Shown: positions 8,234-33,848 of the stretch, piece by piece
Numbering within the stretch: position 1 is the stretch's first letter
Layout: the number at the start of each line of letters is the position of its first letter
Source of the DNA: Candidatus Goldiibacteriota bacterium
GTDB taxonomy: Bacteria > Oederibacteriota > JAAXVQ01
Direction: 5' to 3'
Length of the DNA: 36,674 bases
NCBI GenBank assembly: GCA_020052235.1
Contig: JAGVPM010000043.1
Location: 1 to 36,674, forward strand
Notes under the pieces: model-generated
What the model was told of the DNA's origin: nothing
Seen by the model: only the letters and a program-made list of their open reading frames with translations
The model's database searches: none
Translations under genes and position numbers: made by a program

Positions 8234-9952
8234 CTAGGGTGTGGTTTTGGGTTTCACTTGATCGAAAACCAGGCCGCTTGAGCCTTCGCCCCGTCCCACA
8301 GTTTTATTTCGTCCCACCCACAGGTGTGTTGATCCATCTGTCCAACGGCTGTATTGATACCCACGCGTGATCTGCGCTCCGGCGCGAGGCAATTCTTCCT
8401 CGTGCAGCACCCAGGCGTTCTTGGGTTGCAGCAACCGTCCCCAAGGGGACGTGAGTCCGCCCAATTTTAATTCCATGCTCCGCGCTCCGTTGCCTGTGGG
8501 TTGTGGTATCAGGGGCAGCCAATACTCCGGCACTTCGCCGGCCAACTGATATTCCAACGCGGCCGTGTACGCTGGTGGTGCCGGCATTTGCCCCCCGGTC
8601 GCGCGCCGCCGTTTCTCCTGATATGCTTCGTAGCGGTCCAACATCTCGCCGGATGCGCCCATCACCGAACGTTCAATGGCCCACCCTAGGTTGGCCATCT
8701 CATCCCTCATCAGACGTACTTCCTCCAGGGGCTTCCCTTCCAGCAGCGGTCCCAAGGTGGGGGCGAGGAAGAACAAGCGGCTCGTGTCCGGTGCTTTCTT
8801 GGTCTCAGGGGTTTGCACAAACATGCGCCATGTACCTTTGGGTCCGTCCACGGACGAGGCTGGAGGAATGTTAATGACTTCGCCAAAGGTATTGGTCACA
8901 CGGAAACTATCCAAGCAACAGAGCGAACCCACCTCCATGCTCACGGGAATCAGGAAAAAATCATTGCCGTATGCCAGCGCAAATTCCATGAGCAGCAATT
9001 TTCCCAAATCTTCAGGCCCGGTCTCCACGGAACCAAAACTCACACGCGCATCTTCAAATTCCCACCAACGCGTGGACGGCATGCCGGAGAAACGCACAGG
9101 AGCCGGGATGACGGCGCGTTCAAAGAGTTCCTCGGCCTGCGGTTTCCCGCACGGGCCTGTTTTAGACTTGGCTGCATCAAAGGCATACCAATCCAGGCGT
9201 TCGCCCCGATGTTCTCCTGCGTGCAGTAAAACTTCTCCCTTTTTTCCTGAAGCCACGGCCGTGAATTCGTACTCTTGTTTGGCCGGTACCCAGGCGGGCG
9301 CAGCCTGAGCACGGATGCGCGTCGCGCACCATGTGCGCCAACGCAAGGCCGCAGCCATCACCGCGCCTTGGTCCTGAGTCTGAATCTGATCAAACGGCGG
9401 GATCTTCGTTCCGATCCAGAGTGTGCCCTTCCACGGAACCAAACGGGTGTAGAGCGCATATCCATCCAACACACGGCCGGCCAACAAACGATACGCACGC
9501 TGGGCCGCTTCATCTGCATCCGTCGGCAATAGGGGCAAAGGATATTCTTTAAAAAACAGTTCCCGATAGCGCACACTCAAATCCTTGCCCAACAGTGCCA
9601 GCCACTGCCGTCCCAGATCCGCCCGCAGTTTAAGCTGTGGTTCATCGCTCTGCAGGGCGGATTCTTGTTCCACCCGGGTTTCCAGGGGTTGCGTTCTTGC
9701 CGAATACGGCTCCGCAGGCCGGGCATATGGCGCTCCGGCATTGAGGTAATTGATGTGACTGAAATATCCAGCCAACTCGGCTTTCACCGGCGAGCCGCAA
9801 TCCTCCCCCTGAAACTCGCCAAATTGCCACTGCCGCGCCATCAGCCAGAGCGGATCACTGATTCGGGCCTCGAGCGACGACGTCATCCGTGCATCGCGCG
9901 GACGCGGCTCTACCCGTACCCATGTAGTAATGGAGGATGTGTATGCACTCAT
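8234..9952 (-). CDS. 572-residue orphan protein of the DUF6603-linked cluster
   Basis: There is no signal peptide or membrane helix. The N-terminus has a distinctive conserved-looking block: WVRVEPRPRDARM (11-23) followed by DPLWLMARQWQFGEFQGED (33-51). I recall this block from unnamed hypothetical proteins in other bacterial phyla, without an assigned function. The sequence is Trp- and Pro-rich and appears soluble and mixed alpha/beta, and ends in a charged tail. It is the last gene of the four-gene cluster, 26 bases after the 1848-residue gene, with GGGAG ahead of its ATG; its stop is TAG. It may be a structural or assembly component of a large complex with its three neighbours (inference). 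No enzyme motif was found. Confidence 0.8.
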   Translation of the reverse strand: MSAYTSSITTWVRVEPRPRDARMTSSLEARISDPLWLMARQWQFGEFQGEDCGSPVKAELAGYFSHINYLNAGAPYARPAEPYSARTQPLETRVEQESALQSDEPQLKLRADLGRQWLALLGKDLSVRYRELFFKEYPLPLLPTDADEAAQRAYRLLAGRVLDGYALYTRLVPWKGTLWIGTKIPPFDQIQTQDQGAVMAAALRWRTWCATRIRAQAAPAWVPAKQEYEFTAVASGKKGEVLLHAGEHRGERLDWYAFDAAKSKTGPCGKPQAEELFERAVIPAPVRFSGMPSTRWWEFEDARVSFGSVETGPEDLGKLLLMEFALAYGNDFFLIPVSMEVGSLCCLDSFRVTNTFGEVINIPPASSVDGPKGTWRMFVQTPETKKAPDTSRLFFLAPTLGPLLEGKPLEEVRLMRDEMANLGWAIERSVMGASGEMLDRYEAYQEKRRRATGGQMPAPPAYTAALEYQLAGEVPEYWLPLIPQPTGNGARSMELKLGGLTSPWGRLLQPKNAWVLHEEELPRAGAQITRGYQYSRWTDGSTHLWVGRNKTVGRGEGSSGLVFDQVKPKTTP

Positions 9953-9978
9953 AATTCAAACTCCCATCATTGGATAAA

Positions 9979-12900
9979 CTATTCCCAAACCGTTGCCATG
10001 GTCTCATTTCCCGGATTAAACGGCACACATAGGGCCGGCAAATACTGTCCGCCGGCTTGCAACGACTCCAAATCCACGGCACGCAGTTTGGCCGCATCCA
10101 GGGTTTCCAGGAGAATAGCTTCCAAGGTCTCCAGGTTCCAGCGCCGCCGCGGGTCCGGATGCACGGCCAGCAAAATGCTCTGCGGCGCGCACGCGCCTGG
10201 TGCATCAAAGTGGAACGCCAAGCCCGTGGTCTCCTTGGCCTGCGGCACTACTTCCACCCATTCATCCACCATAAGCCCTGCCAGCGGTTGCTGCCACTGA
10301 GTTTTTCCCGTTTCCACCAAAGCCAGGGACACACGTCCACCGAGCAAAGGCTCGCCTTTCTTCAGCGGCAACGCGGCCCAGCGATCCTCTGGAGTCGCGG
10401 GCAATTGCGCCACGCGCAACTCGTCAGGGTCCACATTTGGCAGCACTGCACAAAACGTGCGCGCGGTTTCCAGGCGCGCCACGTTCTCGCGTACCGGAGC
10501 CACATTCTGCAGCCACAAGCCCACTTCGGTTGCAGGCGCATCCCCCGCCTGCGTGCGCAGCTCCAAGGCAATCTCCAATTCCTTGGCCCACGCTCCCGGG
10601 ATAATCTGCGGCAGGACCTTAAACTCCGCGCCCAAGAGCGCTTCCATGCGGCGCAGGGCAAAGTCCAAAGCCGCTTCCTGGACACGCGAAGTGCGCACGC
10701 TCTCAACGCGCGGGGCAAATTCCGCGACCGCACTCTGCAATTGATCCAACAGTTTTTTAAATTCTTTGGGCGTTGTTCCCCAGTTTCCGGGAATGACACT
10801 GCCCAAGGCAAATCCGCTCAACCCGCGCAAAACGCGGCGCACATTCCCGGCATTGCCAAGTACCCCGTCATTGAGTGCAGCTTGGGCATCTTTCAACCAC
10901 GCATCAGCCAAATCAAACACCGGCTGCGCCCGTTGCGCGAGTTCCGCACCATCCCAGCCGCTCTCCCGCGCCTGCCCGATGTTGGCCAGATCCAAAGCCT
11001 GCAGGGGGCGCGCATGCGCCACCCATTCCCGCAGGGTCCGCACTGCTTCCAAAAATTCCGGAAAGCTCAAGACCTCATTCGCCCATCCCGGATCGCGCTC
11101 AAAAAGAATGCGCACGTCCACATCCTCGTTCACCCCAGTTGGACGATGTTGCATGGCCCAATCAGCCAAACGAGTTTCCCACTCCGACTGTTGCGCAGGT
11201 TGGGACGCGAGCGGAAAATACAGAACATCCAACGGACAGAGGTTAAGCGCATCCAAGGCCACGGATTGCTGCCCTGCAAGCGTTTTATCCGCTTTCATAT
11301 ATTGCACACAGGCGCGCACATTCCGCGGATCACCCATGTGTGCCGCCACCCAGGCATTCAAAGCCGGTTCACCCTGAGCGCGCGGCGCTTGGCTGTTCCA
11401 CGCACTCGCAATAGGTTGCCCTGTGTTCCAAACTGCCAAAACACGGTGCGTCACGGCCGTGCCGCGGCGCGGCGTGCGGATGACGTCCATATCCGGCGGC
11501 GGGACTTCGCCGCGTGACAGTGCCTCCAGTCCCGCGGCTGCACGGCCCGCATTGCCTTGCACGGCTTGGTATACACTTTCGGCCACGGTTAGGTCGCTGC
11601 AAGCATCGGTGATCCCAGCCAAGGCTTCCACTTCAGCCACGATGGCCGCATATTTGGGACCGGAAGCCGGCAACTTGGTTACCGGATGCTGCGCGCGGTC
11701 CACTAAAAGTTTGTTCGCCTGCCAAAATCTTAACAACGCCAGGCCGTCCACCACATTTGAAGCAGCAATAGTTTCCACTGGAGCCGTACTCGGGATCAAT
11801 TTACCCGCCACCAGCGGATAAAGCGCGCGGAACTCGGCAATGTATTGATCCAGCTCCAAACCCGGATGCATTTCATGCAAGCCGCGCTCAAACCTGTAGC
11901 CCAACAAAGCCCCCAGGGGCTGTCCGCGCCGGATGCCTTCCATGAGTTGCACGGCCAGGCGAACGCGGCGTGAGGAAAGATCCACGGCCAAAGCTTCTCC
12001 AGCCGCGCGGCCGCGATGAGTTAAATATCCGCTGCGCAGCACGGCCGCAGCCGTGGCGTGTCCCAAGGATGGTGCCTGGGTGTAGCCCTGGCTGGATTTT
12101 AGTCCCTTGCGGCGCGGGCCCAGATTTTCCACCCAGCCGAATCCGCCCAGCAGCACCCCGTCTTCGTTTTGTTTGCGCACCTCCTGCAAACGCTGCGCGG
12201 CCAGGCCCGTGATCCAGGCATCAAGGCGGTGCGAACTTAGGTCCAGCGTCTCGGCCAGAGCCGCTTCCAATTCGCCAACCGGACGTAAAGCCAAGGCATC
12301 CAACGTTTGTAGAAAACGAATCAATTCCGGATCACTGAGCTTGCCCTTTTGATTTAACACATCACGCAAATGCGTCCAAGGCGTGGGATTGTCCGGGTCC
12401 GGCTGGGTCAAACTCTGCTTGCTCATGATCTCGGGATCGCGCCGCTGCCATGCATGCGTGGGAGGATCCGCGCGATAAGCGGCATCGGCATAAGCCCAAA
12501 GCGCGGCCATGCGCAGCCAGCGGTAGAGCAAGGTCTTCGGCGGCTCGGCTTGGTTGGCCGCCGGGCTGGGATAGGCGGAATTTTGAATGTCTTCGGGCAA
12601 TGCCGAGCACAGCCACTGAATGTAATTGTCCACGAGCTTTTCCCCGGGCGCAGTGCCTGCCTCCACCCAAGGCAATGCAAGCGGTATATTGTGCGGATGA
12701 AATGTGCCGAAACCAATTTGCGGATGGTCCAGGCCCAGCAGCCCAAGCCATGCCGGATTCTGCGCAGGCGTGCGCTGTTTGATTTTTTCCATAACCTTTT
12801 TCCCCAGCAAATCACGGATCGCAACGTGGTGCGAAACCGCCTCGGTACCCAAAACCTCCAGCAGATCCCGGTCCGGATCGCTCCCCGGACGCCCGATGCG

Positions 12901-15525
12901 CGGCACTTGGTTTTGTTTCACGGCCTGGAGCCAGATCCGGCGCAATTCCCCCAAGACGTTCACCGCGCCTGCGGCCCCTTCTTTCAGTCCGTTCCGGCGA
13001 TGCCGGCCCAGATCAGCCACGGCCAAGGCCGCATGCTCGACGCTGTTTGCCATGTCCCAGGGCGTACCCACCTGCGCCCAGCTTCCGGAAAATTTTCCCC
13101 GCGCATCCAAACCGCGTCCTAAATATAAATACGCTTTTCGTATGCTGTCCTTCTCCATTACACATACAGCGTATACATCCGCGCCTTCGTCCAGGGGCTG
13201 CACATGAAAACCCGCGCTCACTAAGGTCCCGGCGGGCTGCAGGTCTTCCAGCTCCCGCAAGAGGATATTTGTCCGGGCGCCCAGGTGAATGAAAAATTTG
13301 GGCAGGCCATTAATGCGCGCTGCATGCGCCAGCACGATCTCAGGACGCGCGCCGGATGAAAAAGTCACGCTTCCAATTCCGGCGCCAAGCATTTCTCCAT
13401 CCAGGGAATTTATCTGAATAGATGTGTCCCAGCTCTGAATGCGAACGAGCCCTTGGTCGGCCGTGATGCCGTCCCCCACGGTCACGCAGGCATACACATC
13501 CTGTATGCCTTGCGTCCGGCGTTGAAAGCGCACGAGCACCACTTCGGGCTCACCGTCTCCATCTAAATCCGCCACGGTCACGGCCGCAGCCTCGTTGCGG
13601 CTGACTTCGGGACACACAGGCACATCCGTAATCCACTGCCAGGAACGCGGTTGTCCTTGGGTATCCAGATCCCGTCCCAAACCTAAAGTGGTGCGTTCCC
13701 CAGCGCGTGTTTCATTCCCGTCAACACCTACGTGCACCCAATCCCACTGCCCGGTGCGCGTCACATCGGCCAGGCAGGCTCCGGCACTAAGGGCGCCATT
13801 GACCTTCGGCCAGGGAACCGGACGCGGCGCATCCCACTGCCACTTGTCTATGCTCTCGGAGGTATCCCAGTTGATGCTCATCGCTGCCGTGTCCGCACCC
13901 AAAGTCAGGCATCCGACTTCAGGCGAACCCTTGCGCGGAGCCCAACGCCCCAGGGAGGTCACGGGCAAGATCCCATACGGCTGCGTGCCTACGCGCAACG
14001 TGGGCAACACACCCCGCGCCCGGACATAATTGCAGAAAAATTTCTTCAATCCCGGCAGATCCGCACCCTCGGGAAAATCCCCCTCATTTTCTCCGAGCAT
14101 ATTGTATATGTAGTATTCCCAGGTGGCGGGCCAGAGTGCCGTCTGCATGAGCATGGGCACATCCTGCTCTTGCAGACCTGCGTTTTCCAGGCGTGCCAGA
14201 GAGTCACGGCCCACGCCAAATGCGCGCCCGGCCAATGCTCCCGCACTGGTATTTTCCAAGGACGGCGGCTCCATTATTTCCAAACGAAACGAGGCTTCCG
14301 CATCCGGATGACCGGCGTACCCGGAACGGGCGGCTTGCGTGTTGTTGGTCGGTGTATTGTGCGGCACAAAACTCAAACCCCACGTGTGCTGGTGCGCCTG
14401 AAACAATTCCGCCAACTCCGCGGCACTGCTGCGCGCATCCAGCGTGGCTTTCACTCCCACCACGATCAAGCGCTCCAACGTCTTGTCCGCGTTGGCGGCA
14501 AAGTGCAAGCGCAGACCCATGCCCACTTTTTCCGCTGCCTGAAAATCCACCATCCAACGCGCGCCTTCGTCAACGCGCGTGTGTGCATCCGGCGCGCCCT
14601 GTGGGTCCAAGCCCGTGGCCAAGGCCGCGGGAATCAACTCGCCCCAAACTGTAAATGCACGTTGCCCCTGCTGATACCCCAGGGCCACCCAGCGGTCCGG
14701 CAGCACCCGGGTATGCGCTGCCCGGTTCCAGGCATGCGGCACGGTTTTCACATCCGGAAACTTAGGGGCGGGATTCAACGGCTGTGTGTCCGGCACGGAT
14801 ATCACCGGACGTTCTTCGGGATTCAACGGCGTGGTCTGCTTCACGATCCAGGCGCCGCGCCGTACTCCGGTCCGCGTCACCAACGCTTGCCAGGCATCCA
14901 GGTACGCCCGTTCCAAGGCCTGCGTGCCCAGACGCCAGACACGCCCCCAATATTCCTGCCCCAGCGCAATTTCCACCTCGGTCAGTTCCCGTGTAAGCGT
15001 ATCTTGGTGCACTTCGTCCGGGTATACCCGCACCAATAAATCCGTGCCTTGCGCCTGATCCACATAGCGCGTTTCCAAGCGCACGGGCAACAACGCCAAG
15101 GGCATGGTGCTGTCAAGATCCGGAATCAGCCGTTCCAACGCGCGCTGATAATCCAGCTGCGCCTGCTGCCGGCGCTGTTCCAGGTCTTGGATGTGCGCCG
15201 CTATTTTTTTAAGCCGGGCGCTCTGCACGCTCACTCCGCGCTTGCACCGGCTCACTTCCTTGCGGGCTTGGGTACAGGCGTCCCCGGCTTGCGGCTTTTC
15301 AGCGCACATTTTGCGCAGTGCCTTCAGCCGTGAGGCGCATGCCTGTATGCATTCCGCCAAACGGGCCTCAGCCTTGGTCAGCTTAGCTTGGGCCGCGGTT
15401 AAGGCTCTTTGGGCGTCATGCAGTGCCTGTTCCGCGCCGGCTTGCTCACGCTTGGCGGTTTCCAGCTCCGCCGGCAATTCCTCCTGAAGGCTGCGGCGCA
15501 GATTTAAAAGTTCGGTCAATGTCAT
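9979..15525 (-). CDS. 1848-residue giant orphan protein with N-terminal coiled coil and FG-GAP-like insert
   Basis: Residues 1-135 are an Ala/Glu/Gln/Lys-rich coiled coil that includes a cysteine-bearing stretch. A block with PVRLETRY (147-154) and LLVRVYPDEVHQD (163-175) follows. Residues from about 590 to 870 contain FG-GAP/VCBS-like propeller repeats, with a calcium-loop motif DLDGDGEPE beginning at residue 653. The C-terminal block (1742-1848) includes PLAGLMVDEWVEVVP and LLETLDAAKLRAVDLESL. I recall the first and last blocks from long hypothetical proteins in distant phyla, with no function assigned. There is no signal peptide. Its ATG overlaps the stop of the 919-residue gene (ATGA, 15522-15525). 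Coding bases here are markedly G+C-rich. It is probably a large scaffold protein (inference). Confidence 0.85.
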   Translation of the reverse strand: MTLTELLNLRRSLQEELPAELETAKREQAGAEQALHDAQRALTAAQAKLTKAEARLAECIQACASRLKALRKMCAEKPQAGDACTQARKEVSRCKRGVSVQSARLKKIAAHIQDLEQRRQQAQLDYQRALERLIPDLDSTMPLALLPVRLETRYVDQAQGTDLLVRVYPDEVHQDTLTRELTEVEIALGQEYWGRVWRLGTQALERAYLDAWQALVTRTGVRRGAWIVKQTTPLNPEERPVISVPDTQPLNPAPKFPDVKTVPHAWNRAAHTRVLPDRWVALGYQQGQRAFTVWGELIPAALATGLDPQGAPDAHTRVDEGARWMVDFQAAEKVGMGLRLHFAANADKTLERLIVVGVKATLDARSSAAELAELFQAHQHTWGLSFVPHNTPTNNTQAARSGYAGHPDAEASFRLEIMEPPSLENTSAGALAGRAFGVGRDSLARLENAGLQEQDVPMLMQTALWPATWEYYIYNMLGENEGDFPEGADLPGLKKFFCNYVRARGVLPTLRVGTQPYGILPVTSLGRWAPRKGSPEVGCLTLGADTAAMSINWDTSESIDKWQWDAPRPVPWPKVNGALSAGACLADVTRTGQWDWVHVGVDGNETRAGERTTLGLGRDLDTQGQPRSWQWITDVPVCPEVSRNEAAAVTVADLDGDGEPEVVLVRFQRRTQGIQDVYACVTVGDGITADQGLVRIQSWDTSIQINSLDGEMLGAGIGSVTFSSGARPEIVLAHAARINGLPKFFIHLGARTNILLRELEDLQPAGTLVSAGFHVQPLDEGADVYAVCVMEKDSIRKAYLYLGRGLDARGKFSGSWAQVGTPWDMANSVEHAALAVADLGRHRRNGLKEGAAGAVNVLGELRRIWLQAVKQNQVPRIGRPGSDPDRDLLEVLGTEAVSHHVAIRDLLGKKVMEKIKQRTPAQNPAWLGLLGLDHPQIGFGTFHPHNIPLALPWVEAGTAPGEKLVDNYIQWLCSALPEDIQNSAYPSPAANQAEPPKTLLYRWLRMAALWAYADAAYRADPPTHAWQRRDPEIMSKQSLTQPDPDNPTPWTHLRDVLNQKGKLSDPELIRFLQTLDALALRPVGELEAALAETLDLSSHRLDAWITGLAAQRLQEVRKQNEDGVLLGGFGWVENLGPRRKGLKSSQGYTQAPSLGHATAAAVLRSGYLTHRGRAAGEALAVDLSSRRVRLAVQLMEGIRRGQPLGALLGYRFERGLHEMHPGLELDQYIAEFRALYPLVAGKLIPSTAPVETIAASNVVDGLALLRFWQANKLLVDRAQHPVTKLPASGPKYAAIVAEVEALAGITDACSDLTVAESVYQAVQGNAGRAAAGLEALSRGEVPPPDMDVIRTPRRGTAVTHRVLAVWNTGQPIASAWNSQAPRAQGEPALNAWVAAHMGDPRNVRACVQYMKADKTLAGQQSVALDALNLCPLDVLYFPLASQPAQQSEWETRLADWAMQHRPTGVNEDVDVRILFERDPGWANEVLSFPEFLEAVRTLREWVAHARPLQALDLANIGQARESGWDGAELAQRAQPVFDLADAWLKDAQAALNDGVLGNAGNVRRVLRGLSGFALGSVIPGNWGTTPKEFKKLLDQLQSAVAEFAPRVESVRTSRVQEAALDFALRRMEALLGAEFKVLPQIIPGAWAKELEIALELRTQAGDAPATEVGLWLQNVAPVRENVARLETARTFCAVLPNVDPDELRVAQLPATPEDRWAALPLKKGEPLLGGRVSLALVETGKTQWQQPLAGLMVDEWVEVVPQAKETTGLAFHFDAPGACAPQSILLAVHPDPRRRWNLETLEAILLETLDAAKLRAVDLESLQAGGQYLPALCVPFNPGNETMATVWE

Positions 15526-18281
15526 GAAGTCACCTTTTTCGGATCGCTCAATAAATCACTGGCATGGATGGCCAGGCGCAAGGGACGCTGCAAGGTCACG
15601 CAGGCCAGGTCCGCGCTGGTGACCCCAGTGCCCCAGGTGATCGGCACCGCAGCGGGAAAATCATTCAATCCGCCGCTCAGCGAGATGTAGTTTCCTTTGG
15701 TCTTGGCCACATGCGGCCACGCCAAATCCATAGCTGTCCAGTGGGCCGTGGGGGTTGTGGAAAGCGTCTCATCCAACCCGTAACGCGGTTCCGTGGGCGG
15801 TTGCTGGATCGCAAAGAACCAGCCCGCGCTTCCGGCTTCGCCCGGTTTCGCCTCGTCACCGTAGGCTTCTTCCGGGGGCACGTTAAAGCACATGAAGGTA
15901 ATGTCCGGCCCGAGCGTGCCGGCAAATTCCGGATATTTTTCCGGGTAGTCCGCATCCCCCGGGTGGCCGGCAGAAGGAACCGGCGCCACTTGCCGGACCC
16001 ACGGGCCGTTGGGATCGCCGTTCTGCGTCCAAGCGGCTTTGGCCATGGACACAATGGCATTCGGATACCGCCCCAAAAGTTCGCCGCGTATGAGCAACAC
16101 TGTCTTGGCCGCAAGCGCGGCCGAGCCCATTTCCGCGTCCAAGGCCAGCGTACGTTGCCAATCCGTAATGCGGTCAATGTCATAGAGCCGCTCCCGATCC
16201 GCATCGGTCACTGGACGCGGCACGGCCCCAACCGGATCCCAGAACTGACGGAAGTACGTCCCGCGCTGGTCCGTGGGAAACTCGCGCCAGAGCAACTCGC
16301 GGCTCATCTCATGGTTGAGTCCCACCATAAATGCCCGTATGAAACGCGGATTGGTGGAAAGCGAAGAAATGGTATTGGGCGGTACTGCGGCCACTCCGGG
16401 CAAAAGCCACTCCTCCGAGATCTCGGCCAAGGGTTTGTACATGGGAGTGGGAAATTCCGGCGCAGCCATGATGGGCTCCAGCGGGTCTTCCGGGTTCCAG
16501 TCCTTGGGGCGCGGGTCAATGCGGCGGCGCCAGCGCGCGGCAATGGTAATCTCCGGATCCAGGCCCTGTGCCACATTTTGTCCCAACTGATTCAGATTCA
16601 ACGGTTCGCGATTGGGTTGACTCGCGCGCGGACGAAGCATGCCTTTATGTTGTTCGCGGGCGCATTGTAAAAAACTCAAATCCGCCTGCAAGCCGGCAGC
16701 GGGACTGTCTACATACGCTTGCGTATCCTCGGATGTTATTTCCCCCAATGCGAACTCACGCGTGGCAGCCTGGATTTGTTTTTGATTCAGGCGTTCCAAT
16801 ATACTCCCGCTGTCCAACCGCCGTCCATGCGCGCCTTCCAGGCGGCGTGCGGCCGGTCCGCGTTCACGGGCCGCTCGGCGAAATGCGCCGCTCAACGCGG
16901 AAGTGGGGATGTTGCTTTTCTCCAGGACCGCATACGCCGTCTGGTTGTTCATCCCCACGCTCACACGCGCGTGCATGGGCGCGGTGATTTGCACCAAAGT
17001 GCTGGCCGGCAATCCGGAAAGTCGGGCATGGGTATTTTTACTGCTGGCGCGTGCCAGTTGGGCTTGACGCAAAAGTTGGTTTGCGGTTTCAATGCCCTCC
17101 ACTTGCTCCCAGGCGGCGGCCATCAGCGACTCCTGCTGCTCTTGTACAATGTGCGTGCCCAGGGCCGCCACCGCGCGTTGGCGCGGATCGGTGTTGAGTT
17201 CGCACAACCAACGCGGAGTTGTCTTGGGCTGAGGAGCCAGTGTGTGGCTGGCCGCATGCCATTGCCCGTACAGGGGCGGCTTCACGGTCAACGAACCCAG
17301 TGAGGTGGTGATCGAAAGTCCTTCAGGCGCGTTCAGCACGTTCTTAATTTCCCGGGCATATGCCGCCATTTGTTGCTTGGCGGCCTGCTCGGTTGCTTCC
17401 GGCATGGGTGCCACGCGCAACGCACCTTCCACACTAACCTCGCCAACCAAAGGAACCTGCACAGACCGGTGTCCGATTTTATCCGCCAATTCGTAAAGAT
17501 CACGTTGTTCCAATTTCCAAACCAAAGCTTCAAAATCCCCGGCCGGACCCGTGGAAAACTCCCAGTGATAATACACGGGCAACTGCAGAGGCACCGCCGG
17601 TGTTGGTGCAGGAAAAGTCCAAGCTGGTTCCAGCAAGGTGTTGTCCTCAACGGGTTTTCCCATGCCGGCCAACACCCCAGCCTTAAACGCGGGTACCACA
17701 CAAGCCAAGTAGGTCTTGTTCGCCTCGAGCTTACGCGGGCATACCAAACGCGATAAATTTTCTGCAGGACGATTGGCCAGTGTGGCACTGATGGCCGTTG
17801 TATCCATGACTTGCGTATACGCCCAAGCCCAGCTTTCGGCCAGATCAGGCAATTCGGCCTCAACCTCGTCAATGTTTAAAAGCGGCAAAGGCTGTCCGGG
17901 CACAAGTTTCCCATCGGCTTGTTCCACCACCACCAGACAGACCCAGGGGCGCAACTGATCGGCCGCATTCGCCGCAGCTGGCGTAAAAAGCCAGGGAAAA
18001 TCCGGACGATCAAATTCAATAAACGGAAAATAGTTGGGTTCAAAATTTTGCGCCTGGTGCTTGGGTTCCGTGCGAATCACTTGAGCCGCATCAAACCCGA
18101 TCACATCGCCGGGACCATACATGCGGACCGTGGTTTGGGCCTGGCTGGACTGCGGCGTGTCGAGGGTCACGTTTACGTTCATGACGACGCGTTTGGTCAA
18201 ACCCGGGGCGCCATCTTTAGGCTCAATGGCCCCGGACAAACCGGCCCGCATCCAGGGAAGATAGATAAAGGCCTGGTTCAT
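15522..18281 (-). CDS. 919-residue orphan protein of the DUF6603-linked cluster
   Basis: This large protein has no signal peptide and no membrane helices. Distinctive blocks are FPWLFTP (95-101), LRPWVCLVVVE (110-120) and DLAESWAWAY (146-155), followed by a cysteine-containing RLVCPRKLEANKTYL segment. I recognise these as recurring in unnamed hypothetical proteins of about 900 residues, but I know no function. The middle is Ala/Arg-rich and helical; the C-terminal third is Trp/Pro-rich. Its start overlaps the DUF6603 gene (ATGA, 18278-18281) and its end overlaps the 1848-residue gene, so three proteins are likely translated in a fixed ratio. AGGTGA precedes the ATG. No catalytic motif was found. 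Confidence 0.85.
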   Translation of the reverse strand: MNQAFIYLPWMRAGLSGAIEPKDGAPGLTKRVVMNVNVTLDTPQSSQAQTTVRMYGPGDVIGFDAAQVIRTEPKHQAQNFEPNYFPFIEFDRPDFPWLFTPAAANAADQLRPWVCLVVVEQADGKLVPGQPLPLLNIDEVEAELPDLAESWAWAYTQVMDTTAISATLANRPAENLSRLVCPRKLEANKTYLACVVPAFKAGVLAGMGKPVEDNTLLEPAWTFPAPTPAVPLQLPVYYHWEFSTGPAGDFEALVWKLEQRDLYELADKIGHRSVQVPLVGEVSVEGALRVAPMPEATEQAAKQQMAAYAREIKNVLNAPEGLSITTSLGSLTVKPPLYGQWHAASHTLAPQPKTTPRWLCELNTDPRQRAVAALGTHIVQEQQESLMAAAWEQVEGIETANQLLRQAQLARASSKNTHARLSGLPASTLVQITAPMHARVSVGMNNQTAYAVLEKSNIPTSALSGAFRRAARERGPAARRLEGAHGRRLDSGSILERLNQKQIQAATREFALGEITSEDTQAYVDSPAAGLQADLSFLQCAREQHKGMLRPRASQPNREPLNLNQLGQNVAQGLDPEITIAARWRRRIDPRPKDWNPEDPLEPIMAAPEFPTPMYKPLAEISEEWLLPGVAAVPPNTISSLSTNPRFIRAFMVGLNHEMSRELLWREFPTDQRGTYFRQFWDPVGAVPRPVTDADRERLYDIDRITDWQRTLALDAEMGSAALAAKTVLLIRGELLGRYPNAIVSMAKAAWTQNGDPNGPWVRQVAPVPSAGHPGDADYPEKYPEFAGTLGPDITFMCFNVPPEEAYGDEAKPGEAGSAGWFFAIQQPPTEPRYGLDETLSTTPTAHWTAMDLAWPHVAKTKGNYISLSGGLNDFPAAVPITWGTGVTSADLACVTLQRPLRLAIHASDLLSDPKKVTS

Positions 18282-21200
18282 GGTTTCACCTCATGGCTGC
18301 CCACCAACTGCGCATTCTTCCCGTCTACGGGGCGGGTTTGCCGTGCTTCGGTATAGGTAGTGGCTTTCCCACCGGCCGCCGACTTGCACGTTTGCTTGTT
18401 AACCCACACGTAGCCCGGTTCATTGATTCCCAACGGCTGTTTGGGTCCGCGGAAACGCCGGCTGCCCCGGGCTTGTAAAGGCGATTGTGCGGCCGCACCG
18501 CGGTCCACCAAGGCCTCGGCCACTGCCGGATGCAGGGTGTAACCGGAATTACCGGTGGCGGCACGGGTTGAGGTTTTAGGATGCGGTTTGTCCTTGTCCT
18601 TGATGTCAATAACCACGTTTTCATAATTGAACACGGCGGTTCTGGCTTTGCCCGCCGGGTAGTAAATATCCTGTGAACCAATGCCGGTGTGTCCGGCGGT
18701 AAATGATTCGAACGCCGGGCGCGAGAGTTTCTCGTCTGCGCTCAAATTGAAGAATTGTCCCGGAGCAAATGCGCCTTTTACCTCGCCGGGTGCATAGATG
18801 TGCTTGGTGCCCAATTGAATATCGGCCACCGCGTAGGCCGTGGGTTGGGCCACATTGGCCGCACCAAACTTCTGGATGGCCACGCCCAAGGGCAGAACTT
18901 TTTGCCGCACGGTCAGAACCCCGAACGGATGCGCCAACACTCCGTCGCCCGGAGGCAGCGAACGCAAGGTCACAAGCATGTTTCCCTCGGCGGGCAATTG
19001 CGCGCTCCAGTTGCGGGCATCCCCCAGGGCTGCCAGCAACTCCGGCAGCGGATCGGCCGGAGGCAGGGGCGGCGGCGCGGGCTGCTCGCCGGCAATGGTC
19101 ACGTCAAAGGAGATGCTGTGCTTGCCGAAGAAATCAAACGTGGCGTCGCCCCAGGCATGCCAGGGTTCCGGTCCCGCCAGGGAGAGCGCCAGGTGCACGC
19201 CGATGAGCACATCGTCATTGTGGTAAATGGCGGCATTGGCCTCGATGTCCACCTGGAACCAAAAAGGTGAAAGATTGAGAAACGCATCCAACGACATGTT
19301 CGCCTGGGCGCTGAAAGTCCCGAGGATGCAAATATTCACGGCCGCATATATATCCAAGCGCGCACCAAACTGGACGGTATTCGAGGTCACGGCCATATAT
19401 GATTCCAGGCGCAGGCGCGGATTGTCCCCGGTGGCCAAACTGATGGCCAAACGCTCGAGAGTCGGAAAATTCGGCGGAGTTGCGAAGTTGGGATGAAAGC
19501 CGCCCAGGGAAGCTATGAAAACCGATTTGGGCCCCCAGTTCACGCGCATGGCCATATCCCCGGTGATGACAAACAGAGCCACCCGCGAGTCGTATAATGT
19601 GGCATCCACCGAGGCATCGCAGGTATCAAAGTCAATGGCCCCTAAAATATCCAGGTGCACGACCACCACGGCCGCTTTTTCATCGGGCAAGGCCAGCGAA
19701 ATGCGCCCGAGAATGGCAATGCGTATGGGAGAAGGAATCTCCAGCACCAGGCCCAGTTCGATTTTCAACAGCGGCTCTGGGGAACCCCAGCCCAGCATGA
19801 TCATGGGGCCAAAAACAAAACGTCCGGGCGCAGGCGGATAAATAGTGCTTAAGTCGCTGATGATCTTGGGCGCATTGGCAATCGGATCTTTGGGAAATAA
19901 AATGGAATTCAGCGTGCGGTTTTTTACCCCGGCGCGCAAGGGCTCGATCATCATGGTGCGGTTAATCCCGAGCAATCCGCCCAGGCCTTTAAGCACGAAC
20001 CCGAAGCCCAATTGAATGGGCGGAAATTCCGCGCAGATGATGATCAGCAGCGAGAACCCGTCCGAGCCGTCGGGCATGCGCGTGGTTAAAAGTCCGATGG
20101 CCGTGATGGCAATCTTTTTGGCAATCTCCAACTGCAGCACGCCCGCGTACTTGGCATTGTCCGGATCAAAAAACAGGTATCCGCCGCCGATGACCACACT
20201 GGCATTGACGGCCAACCCGAGGCCTTTGGGGGGTTTAAAGCCGATCTGCACATCCGTGCCGCCAGTCTTGGGAAAAGTGATTTTAAATATGATGCCAATG
20301 CGTTCCACGCATCCGGAGATCGGACCTAATTTCACACTTGCCGAGGCCGCTAAAACCGCCTGGATTTTTTCTTCGCTGGCCTGCGCCGCTAAATACAACG
20401 ACTGGATCGTCAAGCCATCAAAAATGCTCAAATCGAGCGGGATGGTTACTTCAAACCCCGCGCCTCCGCGGAAACGGATGCCTTTCCGCAGGCTGGCATC
20501 AATTCCCAAGCCGGCCTTTATATCAATGGGCGTACTCGGCAAAATCTTGTTTAAAAAACTGTCCCCGTCCCCGCCCTTTATGGACAGGAGCATGTTTTTC
20601 AAATCGATGCTCCCGCCGGCATCGGTACCCTGAGCAGCGACATCCACGCCCAGAGCAACCTTGATTTCCCCGATTTCAAAGTGTGTGCTGTCCACGGACC
20701 CCAAACGCACGGCCGGTGCCGCAGCGTCCGAGGTCGCGAACTGGACCGTTGCGTTGAACTGGGCAGGGCCGCCTGACCCATCTGCCAATTGAATTGAATC
20801 CGAATTGATTAAAATAGGTGCGGTTGTGCTCTGAAACGTCATTTGCAGCGTGCCATTGGCCAATGGAAACGACAAATTGATATTTCCTTCGGCGAGCACT
20901 GCCAGAGTCAAGCGGTTATTATCATCCAACAAAGCCAGCACTACATCCAAGGCACTACGGATACTGGGATCAAATTGCCGGGCCCAGCCTACGTGTAACA
21001 TATGCTGAGCTGCGGCGAGTTCATCCGGTGGGAGGGGTGGCTGAAGTTTCGGGACCATCCCATAACTGGCTGTGAGTCCCAGGTCCACCAAGCGTTCAGC
21101 GAGTTGCGGTCCGAGTATATCAGTGATATCGGCCACAGTACGGCGGGTTCCCGCGGAATTGTTGATATACGCCGCCGAGATGCACTCCCAGGGATCCTGC

Positions 21201-21733
21201 ATTAATTTAGAAATGGCATTTAGATCAAGTTTCCGGAAACGACCGGCAGAACGCATCACCATACCATCACTGCGTTTGATTTCCGTTAATTCTAAGGTTT
21301 TATAAATTCCTAAAAATTCTAAAGCAATGGCAGGCCATGGCCAGTGCCGAAGCAAATAATGTTCCAATAAGAAATTAAACAAATCTTCACAAAAATATTT
21401 TAACGTATTTTGGGGAGAGCCTGCGGCCGGCTGTAACGTGTTCACTATATCGAGTACTTGTACAACCGCAGATGCTAAAGGCAAAATTGCTTCGGCCACA
21501 TCCGTCAATTCCACTTTATCTTTTTCCAGAACAATCTCAAACGCCTGAATGGCATCAGTTAGGGCATTCACCACTCCATTGAATTGCGCCGGATCCGTCA
21601 ATCCCAAGGCTTGGTTGTCCCAGCCGATGGTATTGCACAGGCTGGCCAGTCCCTCGTCATCGCCCAAACCATTTAGTGGCTGGAGCCATTCTTTGATATG
21701 GCGCAAGGCGGCTTGTTCCAAAGCAATGGTCAT
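18278..21733 (-). CDS. DUF6603 domain-containing protein, 1151 aa
   Basis: The N-terminal 250 or so residues are helical. From about 270 to 880 the sequence becomes strongly beta-rich, with repeated amphipathic strands. It contains blocks I associate with the DUF6603 family: GFVLKGLGGLLGINRT (near 575), ILFPKDPIANAPKIISDL, APGRFVFGPMIMLGWG, GDMAMRVNWG (near 730) and SLAGPEPWHAWGDATF (near 850). A proline-rich linker (EQPAPPPLPPADPLPELL, near 885) leads to a C-terminal domain with a basic tail. The DUF6603 fold and role are unknown to me; long repetitive strands suggest an elongated beta-structure. There is no signal peptide. It is the first gene of the coupled trio, 54 bases after the serine-hydrolase gene. 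The family call is from memory. Confidence 0.85.
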   Translation of the reverse strand: MTIALEQAALRHIKEWLQPLNGLGDDEGLASLCNTIGWDNQALGLTDPAQFNGVVNALTDAIQAFEIVLEKDKVELTDVAEAILPLASAVVQVLDIVNTLQPAAGSPQNTLKYFCEDLFNFLLEHYLLRHWPWPAIALEFLGIYKTLELTEIKRSDGMVMRSAGRFRKLDLNAISKLMQDPWECISAAYINNSAGTRRTVADITDILGPQLAERLVDLGLTASYGMVPKLQPPLPPDELAAAQHMLHVGWARQFDPSIRSALDVVLALLDDNNRLTLAVLAEGNINLSFPLANGTLQMTFQSTTAPILINSDSIQLADGSGGPAQFNATVQFATSDAAAPAVRLGSVDSTHFEIGEIKVALGVDVAAQGTDAGGSIDLKNMLLSIKGGDGDSFLNKILPSTPIDIKAGLGIDASLRKGIRFRGGAGFEVTIPLDLSIFDGLTIQSLYLAAQASEEKIQAVLAASASVKLGPISGCVERIGIIFKITFPKTGGTDVQIGFKPPKGLGLAVNASVVIGGGYLFFDPDNAKYAGVLQLEIAKKIAITAIGLLTTRMPDGSDGFSLLIIICAEFPPIQLGFGFVLKGLGGLLGINRTMMIEPLRAGVKNRTLNSILFPKDPIANAPKIISDLSTIYPPAPGRFVFGPMIMLGWGSPEPLLKIELGLVLEIPSPIRIAILGRISLALPDEKAAVVVVHLDILGAIDFDTCDASVDATLYDSRVALFVITGDMAMRVNWGPKSVFIASLGGFHPNFATPPNFPTLERLAISLATGDNPRLRLESYMAVTSNTVQFGARLDIYAAVNICILGTFSAQANMSLDAFLNLSPFWFQVDIEANAAIYHNDDVLIGVHLALSLAGPEPWHAWGDATFDFFGKHSISFDVTIAGEQPAPPPLPPADPLPELLAALGDARNWSAQLPAEGNMLVTLRSLPPGDGVLAHPFGVLTVRQKVLPLGVAIQKFGAANVAQPTAYAVADIQLGTKHIYAPGEVKGAFAPGQFFNLSADEKLSRPAFESFTAGHTGIGSQDIYYPAGKARTAVFNYENVVIDIKDKDKPHPKTSTRAATGNSGYTLHPAVAEALVDRGAAAQSPLQARGSRRFRGPKQPLGINEPGYVWVNKQTCKSAAGGKATTYTEARQTRPVDGKNAQLVGSHEVKP

Positions 21734-21787: not shown

Positions 21788-23137
21788 TTAGTCCGTGTCA
21801 TTTTTATGACGCTCTTCAAGTTTTTTTGCCATTTCCAGGCCGAAGGCAGACAATTTTGTGAATGTATCGCTGGAAGCGTTGATGGCGATTAACACCGCCG
21901 TAATGGGCTCGCTTTTCCCATCCAAACGCGGTCTTTTTGCCCGAATAATCAAAGCATCGCATACATTGGATTTAGGTCCTCCGGCCAAATATCCCAGCTT
22001 GGACGCCACAAGATCATCCCGAATTCCGGAATCGGGAGGATTATCCACTCCGGTCTGGATCGTCTGGGTTGGATTCCAACCGGCGGCCAACATTCCACCC
22101 GCCAAGGGACTGGATGTGGCGTGTGAGGCACGGCGTGACTCCGCATCGCTTAAATCTTGTCGAAGCATCTCAAGCATTTCAGTATGGTCGCTGCCTCCTA
22201 ATAATTGTTTCCTGGCAAGCAAGGTCATTAACGTTGCAATGCTCCGGGCATTTCCGGCTTGGGTGGGTGGAATGGTTGGAATTTCACTTGGCGGATTTCT
22301 CCAATCCGCCAAAAGTCCGTCATATCCAGTTGAAAGAAACAATCCACCGCCAGGACCGCCGGCTGCCGGATCCATTGGAGTCAGTTTGTTCCAGCGAGGC
22401 CGGCAGAGTCCGCCGCGTTGCGTCAAGGCCCAAAGGTACTCGTAACCGATATCTTTCATTACTAAAGACGTTGCCTTGTTATCCGACCACCCCGCCATAA
22501 GTCTCAAGCGCTCCCTAAATGCTAAAGTATTCAATTGAGATAAATTTTCATAATACAAATTATTCAAATCCGGATCTGTAACAGTCTGGCGTTTAAACTC
22601 AACTTTATCGCTCTCAATGCAAAACATATTTTCAATATTAGGGTGATTTCCCGCCGAGGCACGCATGGTGGCATAACGTTCGCGCGCATGAACGGCAAGT
22701 GTCCCGATATCGATGGCCGCTGTATTGATAAGTTCTAAATTATAATAAAAATTTCTTAATTCCGAGCGCATTTGAAACGCGGCATAAAAAGGCAATAATT
22801 TCGCCATGCTGGCAATTAAAAAATGATCAGTGTCTCCCCATCCGGCATAGGGCGCAAGATAAGATGCCGGTTTGGTGAGATCAACTACGGCAAATCCATA
22901 TCCCCAATACCCGTCCATCCTAGGCCTGGTTGCAGGTTTTTGCCGTTTATATGTTACGCGATTAAATTCCGTGGATGTCAATACCGTTGTTTGCAGAACG
23001 CTTTCCAAATCACTTTGCAAGGCATTATCCAAATTGAAATTCGGATTTAAAAAACCATTAGCCCCCATCATCGGGCCCGCCGTCATAAGCCGCATATCTT
23101 TAACTTTATTCATTGCTTGTATGGTTGGTGAAGCCAT
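21788..23137 (-). CDS. Class A beta-lactamase/PBP-fold serine hydrolase without signal peptide
   Basis: This 449-residue protein contains the three class A/PBP active-site motifs in order: S110-M-A-K113 (SxxK, nucleophile and base), S218-D219-N220 (SDN loop) and K380-L381-G382 (KTG-like). This order and spacing fit the serine beta-lactamase/penicillin-binding superfamily, although the middle region is longer than in ordinary lactamases. No export signal is visible; the N-terminus is polar (MASPTIQAMNKVKDM), which is odd for a cell-wall or antibiotic-resistance enzyme. It lies between the alpha-2-macroglobulin gene (101-base gap) and the DUF6603 gene (54-base gap), so it may belong to either. 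Peptidase, esterase or a catalytically recruited role in the cluster are all possible. Its composition is more A+T-rich than the genes that follow. Confidence 0.75.
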   Translation of the reverse strand: MASPTIQAMNKVKDMRLMTAGPMMGANGFLNPNFNLDNALQSDLESVLQTTVLTSTEFNRVTYKRQKPATRPRMDGYWGYGFAVVDLTKPASYLAPYAGWGDTDHFLIASMAKLLPFYAAFQMRSELRNFYYNLELINTAAIDIGTLAVHARERYATMRASAGNHPNIENMFCIESDKVEFKRQTVTDPDLNNLYYENLSQLNTLAFRERLRLMAGWSDNKATSLVMKDIGYEYLWALTQRGGLCRPRWNKLTPMDPAAGGPGGGLFLSTGYDGLLADWRNPPSEIPTIPPTQAGNARSIATLMTLLARKQLLGGSDHTEMLEMLRQDLSDAESRRASHATSSPLAGGMLAAGWNPTQTIQTGVDNPPDSGIRDDLVASKLGYLAGGPKSNVCDALIIRAKRPRLDGKSEPITAVLIAINASSDTFTKLSAFGLEMAKKLEERHKNDTD

Positions 23138-23238: not shown

Positions 23239-26200
23239 TTACGGTTTCTCATCCTCCACCTTGATCCTCACCTCGGCGCCATTGCAACGGATCTCGGGCA
23301 CGTACATGGCCTGCCCGGTCACGGGCAAGGCGTGGTAATAGCCCGGAGTCTCGGCCCGCAGCGTATAACGGTTCTCCCACAAACCCTTGGGCAGTTTGTC
23401 GATGAAAAGCGCCACCTTGCGGTCGCGCAATTCCTGATAGACCCAGACCGTGCGCCCGGCCATATCCCGCCCCCGGGCAGCCAGCTTGGGTTGCTTGTTC
23501 CCTTTGCCCTGGTAAATGGCCTCTTGGGCGCCGGGTTTGATCTCCTGGGCGTAAAGCGGCGTTCCGCTGCGCACTTCCACGGCTTCAATGCCCGCGGGTT
23601 TTAAATCCTCGAACATCAGATACTCATAGTCATTTTTGACATCCACAGTAACAATAGTTTCAATCCGCTGGCCGCTGACCACGCTCTCTTGATCCTGCAA
23701 CGGCACTTTATCATAAACATAGCCTTTCAATAATGTCGGGCGCCCCACAAATTTGAAATATTGCCGGCGCGTGAACATTTCATTGCCTGCCGCAGTAATG
23801 GGCTCTTCCAGGCTGAAGAACTTGGCCTGGGCTGAAAAATAAACAGTCCCCTTTGGATTTTTATTGCGGATGCGGATCTCATTGGTTCCGTTCTTCAAAT
23901 ACTCATGTTTGACTTCAAAGCAACTGGGTGCCCCAAGGGATTGGTTGGCTGAAATTTTCTGATTAGCCACCGGGTGTCCGTTGACCAACACTTCATAATT
24001 CAAATCTTGGTCCAATTCCCGGCTCACGCGCAGATACTCGGCAAGCCCCAATAGCGCCAGGGCCGTGTCACGGGTGTTGGACCATTGGGCTCCGCGCCGA
24101 TTTTTCACCAACCAGTTCATGGCAGGTTCGACTAGAGCATTTTTGGGGTCCACGGCCATAAAAGCCTGCAGGGCAAAAGACGTGGCTTCAATGCCGCCTT
24201 CGGACCAATGCCAATAACCACTCTCTTTTCCCCAATGCACGGTGCCCATCAAGGTTTCTCCGCTCCCGCCGCTTGCGTGTAAAACCGTGGTGTCGGGCTT
24301 TTCGTCCCTGACCACGCCATCCTCCAGATTGCGAACCAAAGTCTGCGCCTTCTCCTTAAATCCGAATTGATGGCTGGCCAAAGCGAACAAGGCGCGGGTG
24401 TAGGCATTTAATTTGTCCCGCTTGTCCCAAACCCGGTTGTAGGCCTTAGCCAGGTGCTCGCAGAAGGCTTTGCGCTTATACTTGGATTGGGCAAACAGCA
24501 TCCAGGCTGCCAAATCAGGCTGGTTTTCCGCCTGAACTAAGGCATTATGCAAATATGAATTAGCACGTTCCAAAATCTCCGGCTTCACTTTAACTTCCGC
24601 TTCATCCGCCAGGGTCAATCCCCAGAACACATAAGCAGTCATGTACGGATCCGAATTACCCTCTTTCCACCAACCCCAGCCTCCGTCAGAGTGCTGAAAA
24701 TCATAGAGCCGGTCCAAGCCCTGCTTGACCATGTCATCCAACTTCTTAAAATCCTTGGGCCCTTCGGGGTGGGTCTTGTCCGCAAATGTTTTTTCAACCC
24801 CGCCGAACATCTTCTTGGCCAGAACCGCGGGCTTGACTCCTAAATCCTGTATTGTTTTGGCCACCATGACCGCGGGCAAAAAGCGGCTCAGAGTTTGTTC
24901 CGTGCAGCCGTAGGGATAATCGAATAAATAAGGCAGGGCATCCAAAAGCGCCACTGCCAGGCTGGGCGCGATTTGCAAAGTTAAAGAGGTGGACTTAGGG
25001 TTGCGCTCGCGCGGCAGGTCCAGGGTAATCACGCTTTCCGCGCCCCGCACCTTCCCGGCTTTGGCCACAAATTTTTCCAACCCATGCTCATAAACAGGAA
25101 AGGGTTTTTCCATGGCATCGCCGTAAGCGCCGGCTTTGGCTTGCACCAAAATTTTCGCTTCGCCCGGATTTTTTACGGCCACGGTCCAATCCGCGCGGGC
25201 TTCGGCATTGGCAGGAACTGATAAAGTTTGCGAAGCCGCGCCGCCGGCCTCCAAGCCCTGCGCTTTTAAGGAAACCGCGACCGTGAGTTTTTTATCCGTG
25301 TTGTTGTTCACCACGGCCGAGACCGTAACTTTGTCCCCGGTGAGGAAAAAACGCGGGCACTGCAGGCGCACGATCAAGGGCATTTTGGTGCGCGTAACAG
25401 CCTGGGCCTGGCCAAATTGGCTGCCAATGGTTAATGCGCGCGCCTGTGCTTTCCAGGCAGTCAGGGAATCCGGGTATTTAACCTTAACCTTTGCTTGGCC
25501 GTCTTTACCCGTGCGGATGTCCGGCTGCCAAAAAGCCGTGGCCCGGAAATCCTGCCGCACAACAACCACTCCGCCCTGATCCGGTGCCGGTTCACCAGGT
25601 GCTTGAGCTCGGGAACCGTCTTTCATTTTCTTTGATTCCATCCGCGATACTTCTGAAGTGGTACTCTTACTGGGCATGGCCCGCCTGGAGGGAGCGGGCG
25701 CTGATGCAGGCATGGACGCAACAGCGCCCATGGCCATGCTGCTTTCCTTATCCCTGAAACTATCCTCGGACTCGTACCTCTCCCCGGATTCCGCAATTTC
25801 AGCAGGCGGGGCTGCCGGCGGTTCTTTGTCAAGCTTGGCGTAGCTGCGCTGGTTGAGAGTGCTGTCCGTGCGCACTTGTTGGGATCGTTTGGTGCCAAAA
25901 TAAAATTGGCGCGGATCTCCGGCATAATCGGCCTGGATGTAGGAAACCGCCTCATCCACCAGGGCCAGGGAAACTTCGGCCACAACGGGTTTGCCTGCCT
26001 GGTCGCGGGCCGTAAGCGTGAATGTGCCTTCTTCTTGTGCGTGATATTGTTCTTTGTCCGGTTTAATCTCCAAATTCAGGAAATGGTCCACAGGGGGAAC
26101 CACCACCTGTTTGGTGTCTTGGTAAAGCTGAAGATCGCTGACCATGGTGGCTGATAAAAATATGTTGGGCACGTACTTGGCATCAATGGGGAGCTCCAGC

Positions 26201-29911: not shown

Positions 29912-31216
29912 TTATTTTAATGTCGCCAGGAGGCTGCGCGCCTTTTCACGGTCCAGCTTGGTCTCGGGCTGAAAATCAGCGGGTCCTGGAAGCTCAATGC
30001 ATTTTTGCAATATCATTTTCGCTTCTTCTTTTTGGCCCATGGCAACCAGCGTTTCCGCCAAACCGAGATGGTGAAGCACGACATCCGGCTTGTCGGCCAC
30101 GGCCGCGCGGGCGTATTCCAAAGATTTTTTCATATCCCCCCGCGAAAGCGGCCATCCCGGCGCTTTGCGGTAAAGCACTCCCAGCACATGCTGCGCGTTT
30201 CCATCCTTGGGATTAATCGCCAAGGCTTTTTCCATGGAGCGGGCAATGCCGTCCACCGCGAACAGGCTGTTCAGGATGCCGCGCTCCTCGGCCGCTTGAA
30301 TGATCCAAACCTCATTTTTCGCCCCTTTTAAATAGGCGATCAATATCTGTTTCGCCTGTTCCAGTTCTCCGGGCCTCAAGGTTCCGTGCACCAAAACCGT
30401 CGGCCCCGGGATTCCGTCCGGAGAAAGTAAACTGTCCTTTTCACCAGCCAATTGTTGCAAACTATGATTTTCGTTTTCATTCCGTCCCACGATCACTTTG
30501 GCGCCGCCGGGCAGCCGGAAATGTCGGCCATATTTCAACAGCCGGGCGTCCGGCAATTTGAAATCCGGCTGATGCTCCAGAAGTTCGCGGAATTTCAGGC
30601 TGAACTCTTTATCGGTCAGCAGGCATCCGCCTGCCGGGCAGGGATAATCATGGATATTAAACTGTTCGGCCAATTGAATTTGAGGCGCGCGGCCCCGGCC
30701 TTGGAAGGCAAGCAGACGGCTGCGGTCCACCCAGCCTTGAACCTCCGGAATGGATGGTTTGAAATGCTGCGCGGACAGGGGGCGGACAATGAATCCTTCC
30801 AAACCCGACTCGCGTTCGATAATATGCATGGCATCACGGCGCTGGGACATGGGCCGCTCGCCGAGCACCTCCCCCGTGGCCACAAAAGACGCGCCGATCT
30901 CCGCCATATATTCCTTGGCGCGCGCGAACAGATGAACCCGGCAGTCCAGGCAGGCATTCATGCCGCTTCCCCGGCCAAAACGCGGATGTTTCATGATCTC
31001 AAGATAGGCTTCACCGCACGCCTTGATTTTGACCGGGATGCCCAATTGATTGGCGGCCTGCTGCGCGGCGGAGCAGCCGAAATTTTTAGGTGTGCAATTG
31101 CAGAAAGGCGAAGTGAAATTCAACGCCTCCACGGCAATTCCCTGTTCCAACAGCAAACGCCCGGCAAGAATACTGTCCAAACCGCCGGAGAGCAGTAAAA
31201 CGGCTTTTATTTCCAC
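29912..31216 (-). CDS. Thiouridine-synthase-like ATP pyrophosphatase fused to a TatT-like TPR domain
   Basis: This 434-residue protein starts at GTG (31216) behind AAAGAGAG. Residues 1-295 form a PP-loop ATP pyrophosphatase of the ThiI/MnmA-like group: SGGLDS (10-15) binds ATP. Three cysteine groups follow, C39/C41/C48, NACLDC (C89, C92) and PCPAGGC (C193, C198), which could carry sulfur or bind a metal cluster. Relatives activate uridine in tRNA for thiolation. From about 300 the protein switches to a TPR domain with LGVLYRKAPGWPLSRGD (345-361), resembling TatT, a TRAP-transporter-associated TPR protein. Relatives I recall end soon after the pyrophosphatase part, so this is a fusion. It lies downstream of sulfur-assimilation genes, which could supply cysteine sulfur. 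Confidence 0.8.
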   Translation of the reverse strand: MEIKAVLLLSGGLDSILAGRLLLEQGIAVEALNFTSPFCNCTPKNFGCSAAQQAANQLGIPVKIKACGEAYLEIMKHPRFGRGSGMNACLDCRVHLFARAKEYMAEIGASFVATGEVLGERPMSQRRDAMHIIERESGLEGFIVRPLSAQHFKPSIPEVQGWVDRSRLLAFQGRGRAPQIQLAEQFNIHDYPCPAGGCLLTDKEFSLKFRELLEHQPDFKLPDARLLKYGRHFRLPGGAKVIVGRNENENHSLQQLAGEKDSLLSPDGIPGPTVLVHGTLRPGELEQAKQILIAYLKGAKNEVWIIQAAEERGILNSLFAVDGIARSMEKALAINPKDGNAQHVLGVLYRKAPGWPLSRGDMKKSLEYARAAVADKPDVVLHHLGLAETLVAMGQKEEAKMILQKCIELPGPADFQPETKLDREKARSLLATLK

Positions 31217-32701: not shown

Positions 32702-32740
32702 GATAAATCTCCTTTATGCGAATTGAATTTTTATTTATTA

Positions 32741-32793: not shown

Positions 32794-32821
32794 GAAAATC
32801 CATTAAATCCCAAACAATTGT

Positions 32822-33835: not shown

Positions 33836-33848
33836 TCGATTTAAAAAT

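Follow-up and report, generated by a model that had tools for sequence, protein, structure and literature searches.

A five-gene module, E-A-B-C-D, was delineated on the minus strand of the window (the whole 36,674-nucleotide stretch analysed, contig JAGVPM010000043.1 of a Candidatus Goldiibacteriota bacterium), and related loci were compared across bacteria and archaea. Taken as a whole, the account that we consider probable is that of a horizontally spread module with an adaptor (A) and a chassis (B-C-D) that leans outward. An architecture of adaptor and exchangeable cassette is very likely from the comparison of homologous loci, while outward presentation or delivery of the enzyme by the chassis is a serious but tentative possibility. 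The features of the module in the window were as follows.

E, 21788-23137, minus strand: 449 amino acids, serine beta-lactamase family (Beta-lactamase2), the predicted exchangeable enzyme of the module
A, 18278-21733, minus strand: 1151 codons, DUF6603 protein, proposed two-faced adaptor
A, N-terminal half, 20414-21733, minus strand: residues ~1-440, helical then beta, varying with the enzyme in homologues
A, C-terminal half, 18281-20413, minus strand: residues ~441-1151, DUF6603 beta-strand core, conserved with B-C-D
B, 15522-18281, minus strand: 919 codons, chassis protein with no solved relative
C, 9979-15525, minus strand: 1848 codons, chassis protein
C, lineage-specific insert, 12856-13848, minus strand: ~residues 560-890, FG-GAP-like, column occupancy 5-25%
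D, 8234-9952, minus strand: 572 codons, chassis protein

Open reading frames were called mechanically (part of the E start positions are approximate), and signal peptides and membrane segments were judged from hydropathy, not with dedicated predictors. The calls agreed with the first-pass annotation in placing A, B, C and D as tandem neighbours in unbroken order, with 4-bp ATGA overlaps between A and B (18278-18281) and between B and C (15522-15525) and 26 bases between C and D; the fixed stoichiometry that had been read from this coupling is not implied by it. E lies 54 bp upstream of A and was predicted to have no signal peptide. Hydropathy also bore out the absence of signal peptides and membrane helices from A-D, unlike the neighbouring genes, five of which downstream of A-D (P175, BNR398, P636, P342 and P519) have clear N-terminal signals. 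Immediately upstream of E, a bacterial alpha-2-macroglobulin (MG2, bait, TED and MG10 domains) was found at 23239-28563 (minus strand); its longest ORF begins with TTG and has no signal peptide, and the real start may differ. Elsewhere on the minus strand, 29912-31216 encodes a 434-aa protein with an unusual combination of a ThiI-like or tRNA-methyltransferase HUP domain, an NFACT-R RNA-binding domain and TPR, and 31403-36306 holds a sulphur-assimilation cluster (a Cys/Met PLP enzyme, a CysK-like PALP enzyme, an Rrf2 regulator and a CysN-like GTPase whose end partially matches APS kinase).

GTDB species genomes were scanned with B, which gave 95 relatives, and the best 80 loci were kept. Profile searches recovered the full A-B-C-D set in 54 of these best 80 B-seeded loci, many of those lacking the full set ending at contig ends. 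The 54 complete loci span 13 named phyla of bacteria and archaea, including haloarchaea and Nitrososphaerota, and keep the order A-B-C-D except for two rearranged to C-D-B-A; median gaps were 2 bp (A-B), 22 bp (B-C) and 2.5 bp (C-D). Chance is excluded because loci retrieved with B as the only query contain all four families in 54 of 80 cases. The proposal of an undescribed multi-protein system that recurs with conserved gene order across unrelated genomes was strongly supported by the neighbourhood survey: the families co-occur elsewhere, and no known family scored above cut-off against B, C or D. So far as the open-access literature goes, no description of the E-A-B-C-D gene set was found.

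DUF6603 was above cut-off in 12 of 397, 7 of 189, 12 of 248, 3 of 197 and 3 of 194 sampled genomes of five phyla, each sample counting the genome on which it was centred. Among 39 loci fetched around A hits, B directly follows A in 21, and most of the remainder form a second type in which a distant B' takes the position of B (hhalign 96.5% across residues 29-262 of B); almost every A is followed by B or B'. The second-type loci (L149, L164, L165, L170-L175, L179, L184 and L185) have a larger or diverged A, then B' and often an unrelated C', and their upstream genes encode, among others, a GH127 protein in L164 and, in L170, a DUF4135 protein of LanM type. In the window's own phylum, B was detected in 1 of 45 genomes. 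Plasmid copies, annotated as hypothetical proteins, occur in haloarchaea, Streptomyces, Rhizobium and others, one of them bordered by integrases. The system is patchy and mobile. No occurrence of B in viral contigs was confirmed; an unverified 'Bacteriophage sp.' faecal clone (L193, MT835531.1) with a B homologue near its end is probably mis-binned bacterial DNA and was not counted.

The count of four parts given by the first-pass annotation fell short, although the four families themselves held up: an enzyme gene, E, precedes A as a fifth part. Across the surveyed loci, the gene before A is mostly on the same strand, at a median gap of 1 bp (72 of 80 gaps ≤60 bp), and is of unrelated kinds. 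Pfam searches of 66 E-slot genes gave PhoD phosphatase (10), M64 peptidase (8), subtilase (7), tyrosinase (3), and PLD, metallo-beta-lactamase and NAL1 (2 each), with Het-C, galactose oxidase, DUF2515 and a WD40 propeller among the kinds seen once; several E-slot genes are unknown or non-enzyme in kind (for example, WD40 in L155). Catalytic motifs are retained in most subtilase, PhoD, M64, tyrosinase and NAL1-type E proteins. In the window, E matched Pfam PF13354 above cut-off (E=3e-8) and contains, in order, the motifs SxxK (S110-M-A-K), SDN (S218-D-N) and KxG (K380-L-G); by motif order and Pfam match it fits class A beta-lactamase-like enzymes and is a predicted hydrolase. Its relatives were absent from 20 genomes with the system, in a search run with no positive control. 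The subtilase and NAL1-type (trypsin-fold) E proteins, two unrelated protease classes, have in common a C-terminal domain of ~100 aa (L006:4249-6678, L077:3952-6285, L045:4887-6485, L042:175-1656 and others), which may by inference be a docking tag. Most E-slot proteins have no export signal by hydropathy. Not every E needs the module for export, since a Tat-like start was seen in the E of L029 and Sec or lipoprotein-like starts in the upstream genes of L025 and L060.

By sequence comparison, unrelated predicted enzymes fill the E slot of otherwise near-identical operons. B, C and D of a Methylococcales locus (L069) and a Nitrosomonas locus (L071) are 89-90% identical, with mutually dissimilar E proteins, a NAL1-type protease in the former and a tyrosinase in the latter. 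Two Nitrospira loci (L017, PLD; L063, PhoD) differ by the same kind of swap, with B, C and D 77-84% identical, and in both pairs of loci A is conserved in its C-terminal half only. This was quantified with all enzyme-typed pairs of A whose C-terminal halves exceed 80% identity. N-terminal halves averaged 80% identity in the 13 pairs that share an enzyme class; in the 20 pairs of different classes the average was 26%, which is background, and the maximum 30%. With permuted enzyme labels, 0 of 1000 runs reached the overall effect. Many of the compared pairs come from Nitrospira and are non-independent, and the Methylococcales/Nitrosomonas pair is independent. Across these homologues the N-terminal half of A changes with the predicted enzyme, and the DUF6603 half stays with B, C and D. 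The enzyme class alone does not fix the N-terminal half, because L151 and L152, which both carry M64, are an exception in being only 35% identical there (C-terminal halves 90%). Mapped onto a tree of A, enzyme class needs 18 changes (minimum possible 9, shuffled mean 36), so that by this reconstruction the enzyme is inherited for some time and then swapped.

Some Nitrospira operons carry two enzymes, each with its own A. The layout is [PLD-A1]-[protease-A2]-B-C-D in L006, L037 and L048, and the same two-A layout is present in L011, where the stretch begins before the first enzyme could be typed. A1 and A2 are identical in DNA over 1729 bp (L006), 1437 bp (L037) and 1088 bp (L048) of their 3' halves, while their 5' halves in these three loci are at background; in L011, the 3' halves are ~90% identical. 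Between genomes, the 3' half of A is only ~70-87% identical. In metagenome-assembled loci identity of A1 and A2 could reflect collapse, against which the complete N. defluvii chromosome (L037) argues. The simplest reading of these alignments is gene conversion, which would keep the docking halves of both A copies matched to the single B-C-D set. The A1/A2 pairs of L006, L037 and L048 are in their own right a natural example of apparent gene conversion confined to one module.

The match of the N-terminal half of A to the enzyme was seen in homologues; in the window it is indirect, via GC3. GC3 was low for E (0.45) and for the first 320 codons of A (0.49); the remainder of A reached 0.68, B-D lay at 0.62-0.66 and flanking genes at 0.55-0.64. 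A change point was placed at codon 320 of A with a log-likelihood gain of 18.4 (maximum of 500 shuffles, 10.8); the corresponding gains for B, C and the alpha-2-macroglobulin gene were 2.9-7.4. Because GC3 is low in E and the front of A relative to the rest of A, B-D and the flanks, these look, on composition alone, as if they had been added later to a chassis already in place. The composition break at codon 320 precedes the position (about 440-500) at which homology breaks off in other loci. That the high-GC B-C-D genes were the foreign part was considered and dropped, as their GC3 is close to that of flanking genes and it is E and the front of A that deviate.

Assignment of the 1151-residue protein A to DUF6603, as proposed in the earlier annotation, was confirmed by a Pfam profile match (PF20248, residues 438-1000, 447.7 bits against a cut-off of 27, E = 6e-134). 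No function has been assigned to the family, and the open-access literature yielded no mention of DUF6603 or PF20248. The enzyme-matched N-terminal half lies mostly outside the Pfam domain. An AlphaFold model of A (mean pLDDT 77.5, pTM 0.50) has a helical N-terminus followed by ~30 long strands, with pLDDT of 86-97 in each ten-residue block of residues 500-880; many strands are amphipathic, one face hydrophobic and the other polar. Foldseek returned for A only big barrels and belts at TM-scores of 0.1-0.3 and rmsd >15 Å, and because these scores are low, no more is claimed than that A is predicted to contain a large amphipathic beta-sheet element. In long antiparallel amphipathic strands A is akin to outer-membrane barrels and ushers (MtrB-type, FimD, LptD); unlike these, it has no signal peptide and is also found in archaea, which lack such an outer membrane. 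An outer-membrane beta-barrel was rejected as the identity of A, given the missing signal peptide in the window and fold matches at low TM-score only. Designed helical bundles, the sole PDB sequence matches (to the helical N-terminus), were rejected as relatives. A hydrophobic N-terminus is rare in A homologues (5 of 112), and no E-A fusions were present among oversized A proteins.

For B and D, no Pfam, NCBIfam or PHROGs family was matched; C gave only a sub-threshold FG-GAP match in its insert and coiled-coil noise at its N-terminus. Searches of A-D against NCBIfam, PHROGs and PADLOC returned no meaningful match beyond noise, PDB sequence searches with single proteins and with profiles returned nothing real, and profile-profile comparison of A-D gave no common ancestry and no internal repeats. 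The Trp/Pro/Arg blocks pointed out by the first reading are real, each conserved in ~50 homologues; they include a block of B (GLNHEM.RELLWRE.PTDQRG.YFRQFWD) and a signature near the N-terminus of D (DPLW...RQWQ.GE..GEDAGSP). The predicted structure of B (pLDDT 83.9, pTM 0.74) had no Foldseek match in the PDB (best E 0.12) or among viral structures, and no shell or capsid fold was seen in structure comparisons. The N-terminus of C (residues 1-135) is charged and resembles a coiled coil, and conserved blocks span residues ~140-520 and 1090-1848; the FG-GAP_3 match of C (residues 639-663) is sub-threshold and lies in the insert, which is missing from most homologues. In 13 loci, including the Nitrospira loci L007, L017 and L037, a separate gene for a product of 269-345 aa lies between B and C; the N-terminus of C seems to have been split off, because the intervening product of L011 resembles the front of other C proteins. 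Surface-type inserts occur in chassis proteins: D of L034 has a lamin tail domain, and there are annotations of BGTF, lamin-tail and VCBS. The description of the proteins as cytoplasmic-looking holds for the window copies and fails for 24 of 98 B homologues that carry a hydrophobic insert, a two-helix hairpin in most strong cases; the site of this transmembrane hairpin corresponds to window B residue 506 (~16764 of the window), where window B lacks it.

From these data, A probably binds its enzyme through the N-terminal half and the chassis through the C-terminal half. The N-terminal half would hold the enzyme and the DUF6603 beta-sheet half would dock onto a common B-C-D complex, making enzyme plus N-terminal half an exchangeable cassette and B-C-D a fixed chassis; in the window, the payload would be the serine beta-lactamase-family hydrolase. 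Association with the cytoplasmic membrane is plausible in part of the lineages, where B with a hairpin (about a quarter of loci) may anchor the complex. Most of the E enzyme classes usually act outside the cell. We lean to outward delivery because these classes mostly have no signal peptide here, and because chassis proteins acquire surface-type inserts; with less assurance, then, the chassis may present or deliver the enzyme outward. The module resembles Tc toxin complexes and contractile injection systems in having a fixed large apparatus with an exchangeable enzyme payload. It differs in that A-D are unmatched to their Pfam or PHROGs families, that a gene of its own, paired with a dedicated A adaptor, encodes the payload, and that A-D include no AAA ATPase, sheath or tube gene. 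PHROGs and Pfam gave no sheath, tube or baseplate homologues among A-D, and Pfam and PDB sequences gave no homology to TcA, TcB or TcC (Rhs). That the module is a new class of protein-delivery machine common to bacteria and archaea and unrelated to known secretion and injection systems is a possibility that we regard with some doubt; in it, folded enzymes would be loaded interchangeably by the two-faced DUF6603 adaptor onto B-C-D, which would be anchored in the membrane in some lineages.

Alternatively, the module could be an intracellular conflict or immune system in which B-C-D sense invasion, A links them to E, and E is a swappable effector, released or activated. A fixed sensor with a swappable effector is the usual logic of immune systems, variable-effector anti-phage systems likewise combine a conserved core with interchangeable effectors (PLD, protease and TIR genes, common to both, and Het-C were found before A), and the distribution is patchy and mobile. 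We consider this unlikely: the core is unmatched in PADLOC (no match for A, B, D or window E, noise only for C at E=0.009 in a coiled coil, and weak DrmC matches of the PLD enzyme), A-D have no NTPase or nucleotide-signalling domain, and tyrosinase, galactose oxidase and beta-lactamase are unusual as immune effectors. It is quite improbable that the chassis is an intracellular storage or organising assembly that encloses or arrays the enzyme for metabolism with no export. That most E and nearly all A-D proteins lack signal peptides would fit such an assembly, and A, large and rich in beta strands, could wrap around a partner, but A-D are unmatched to encapsulin, microcompartment and capsid families, the payload classes mostly act on polymers or membranes, and some B homologues have a membrane hairpin. 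Very improbably, A is a dedicated chaperone or inhibitor of E, merely co-inherited with a physically unrelated B-C-D; its N-terminal half does match its enzyme and each Nitrospira enzyme has its own A, but its C-terminal half is conserved with B-C-D and homogenised between two A copies, which argues for a common partner of those copies, and B or B' is nearly always next to it.

On the preferred reading, of an adaptor that joins exchangeable enzymes to a fixed chassis, four conserved families of giant proteins with no assigned function become parts of one system. It follows an exchange rule by which unrelated enzymes replace one another in a single slot, together with the adaptor's front half, and this rule makes the function directly testable. 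Should the module deliver its enzyme, bacteria and archaea would have in it a new delivery machine, one that lends itself naturally as a plug-in platform for enzymes; should it serve immunity, it would be a new immune system with unusual effectors.
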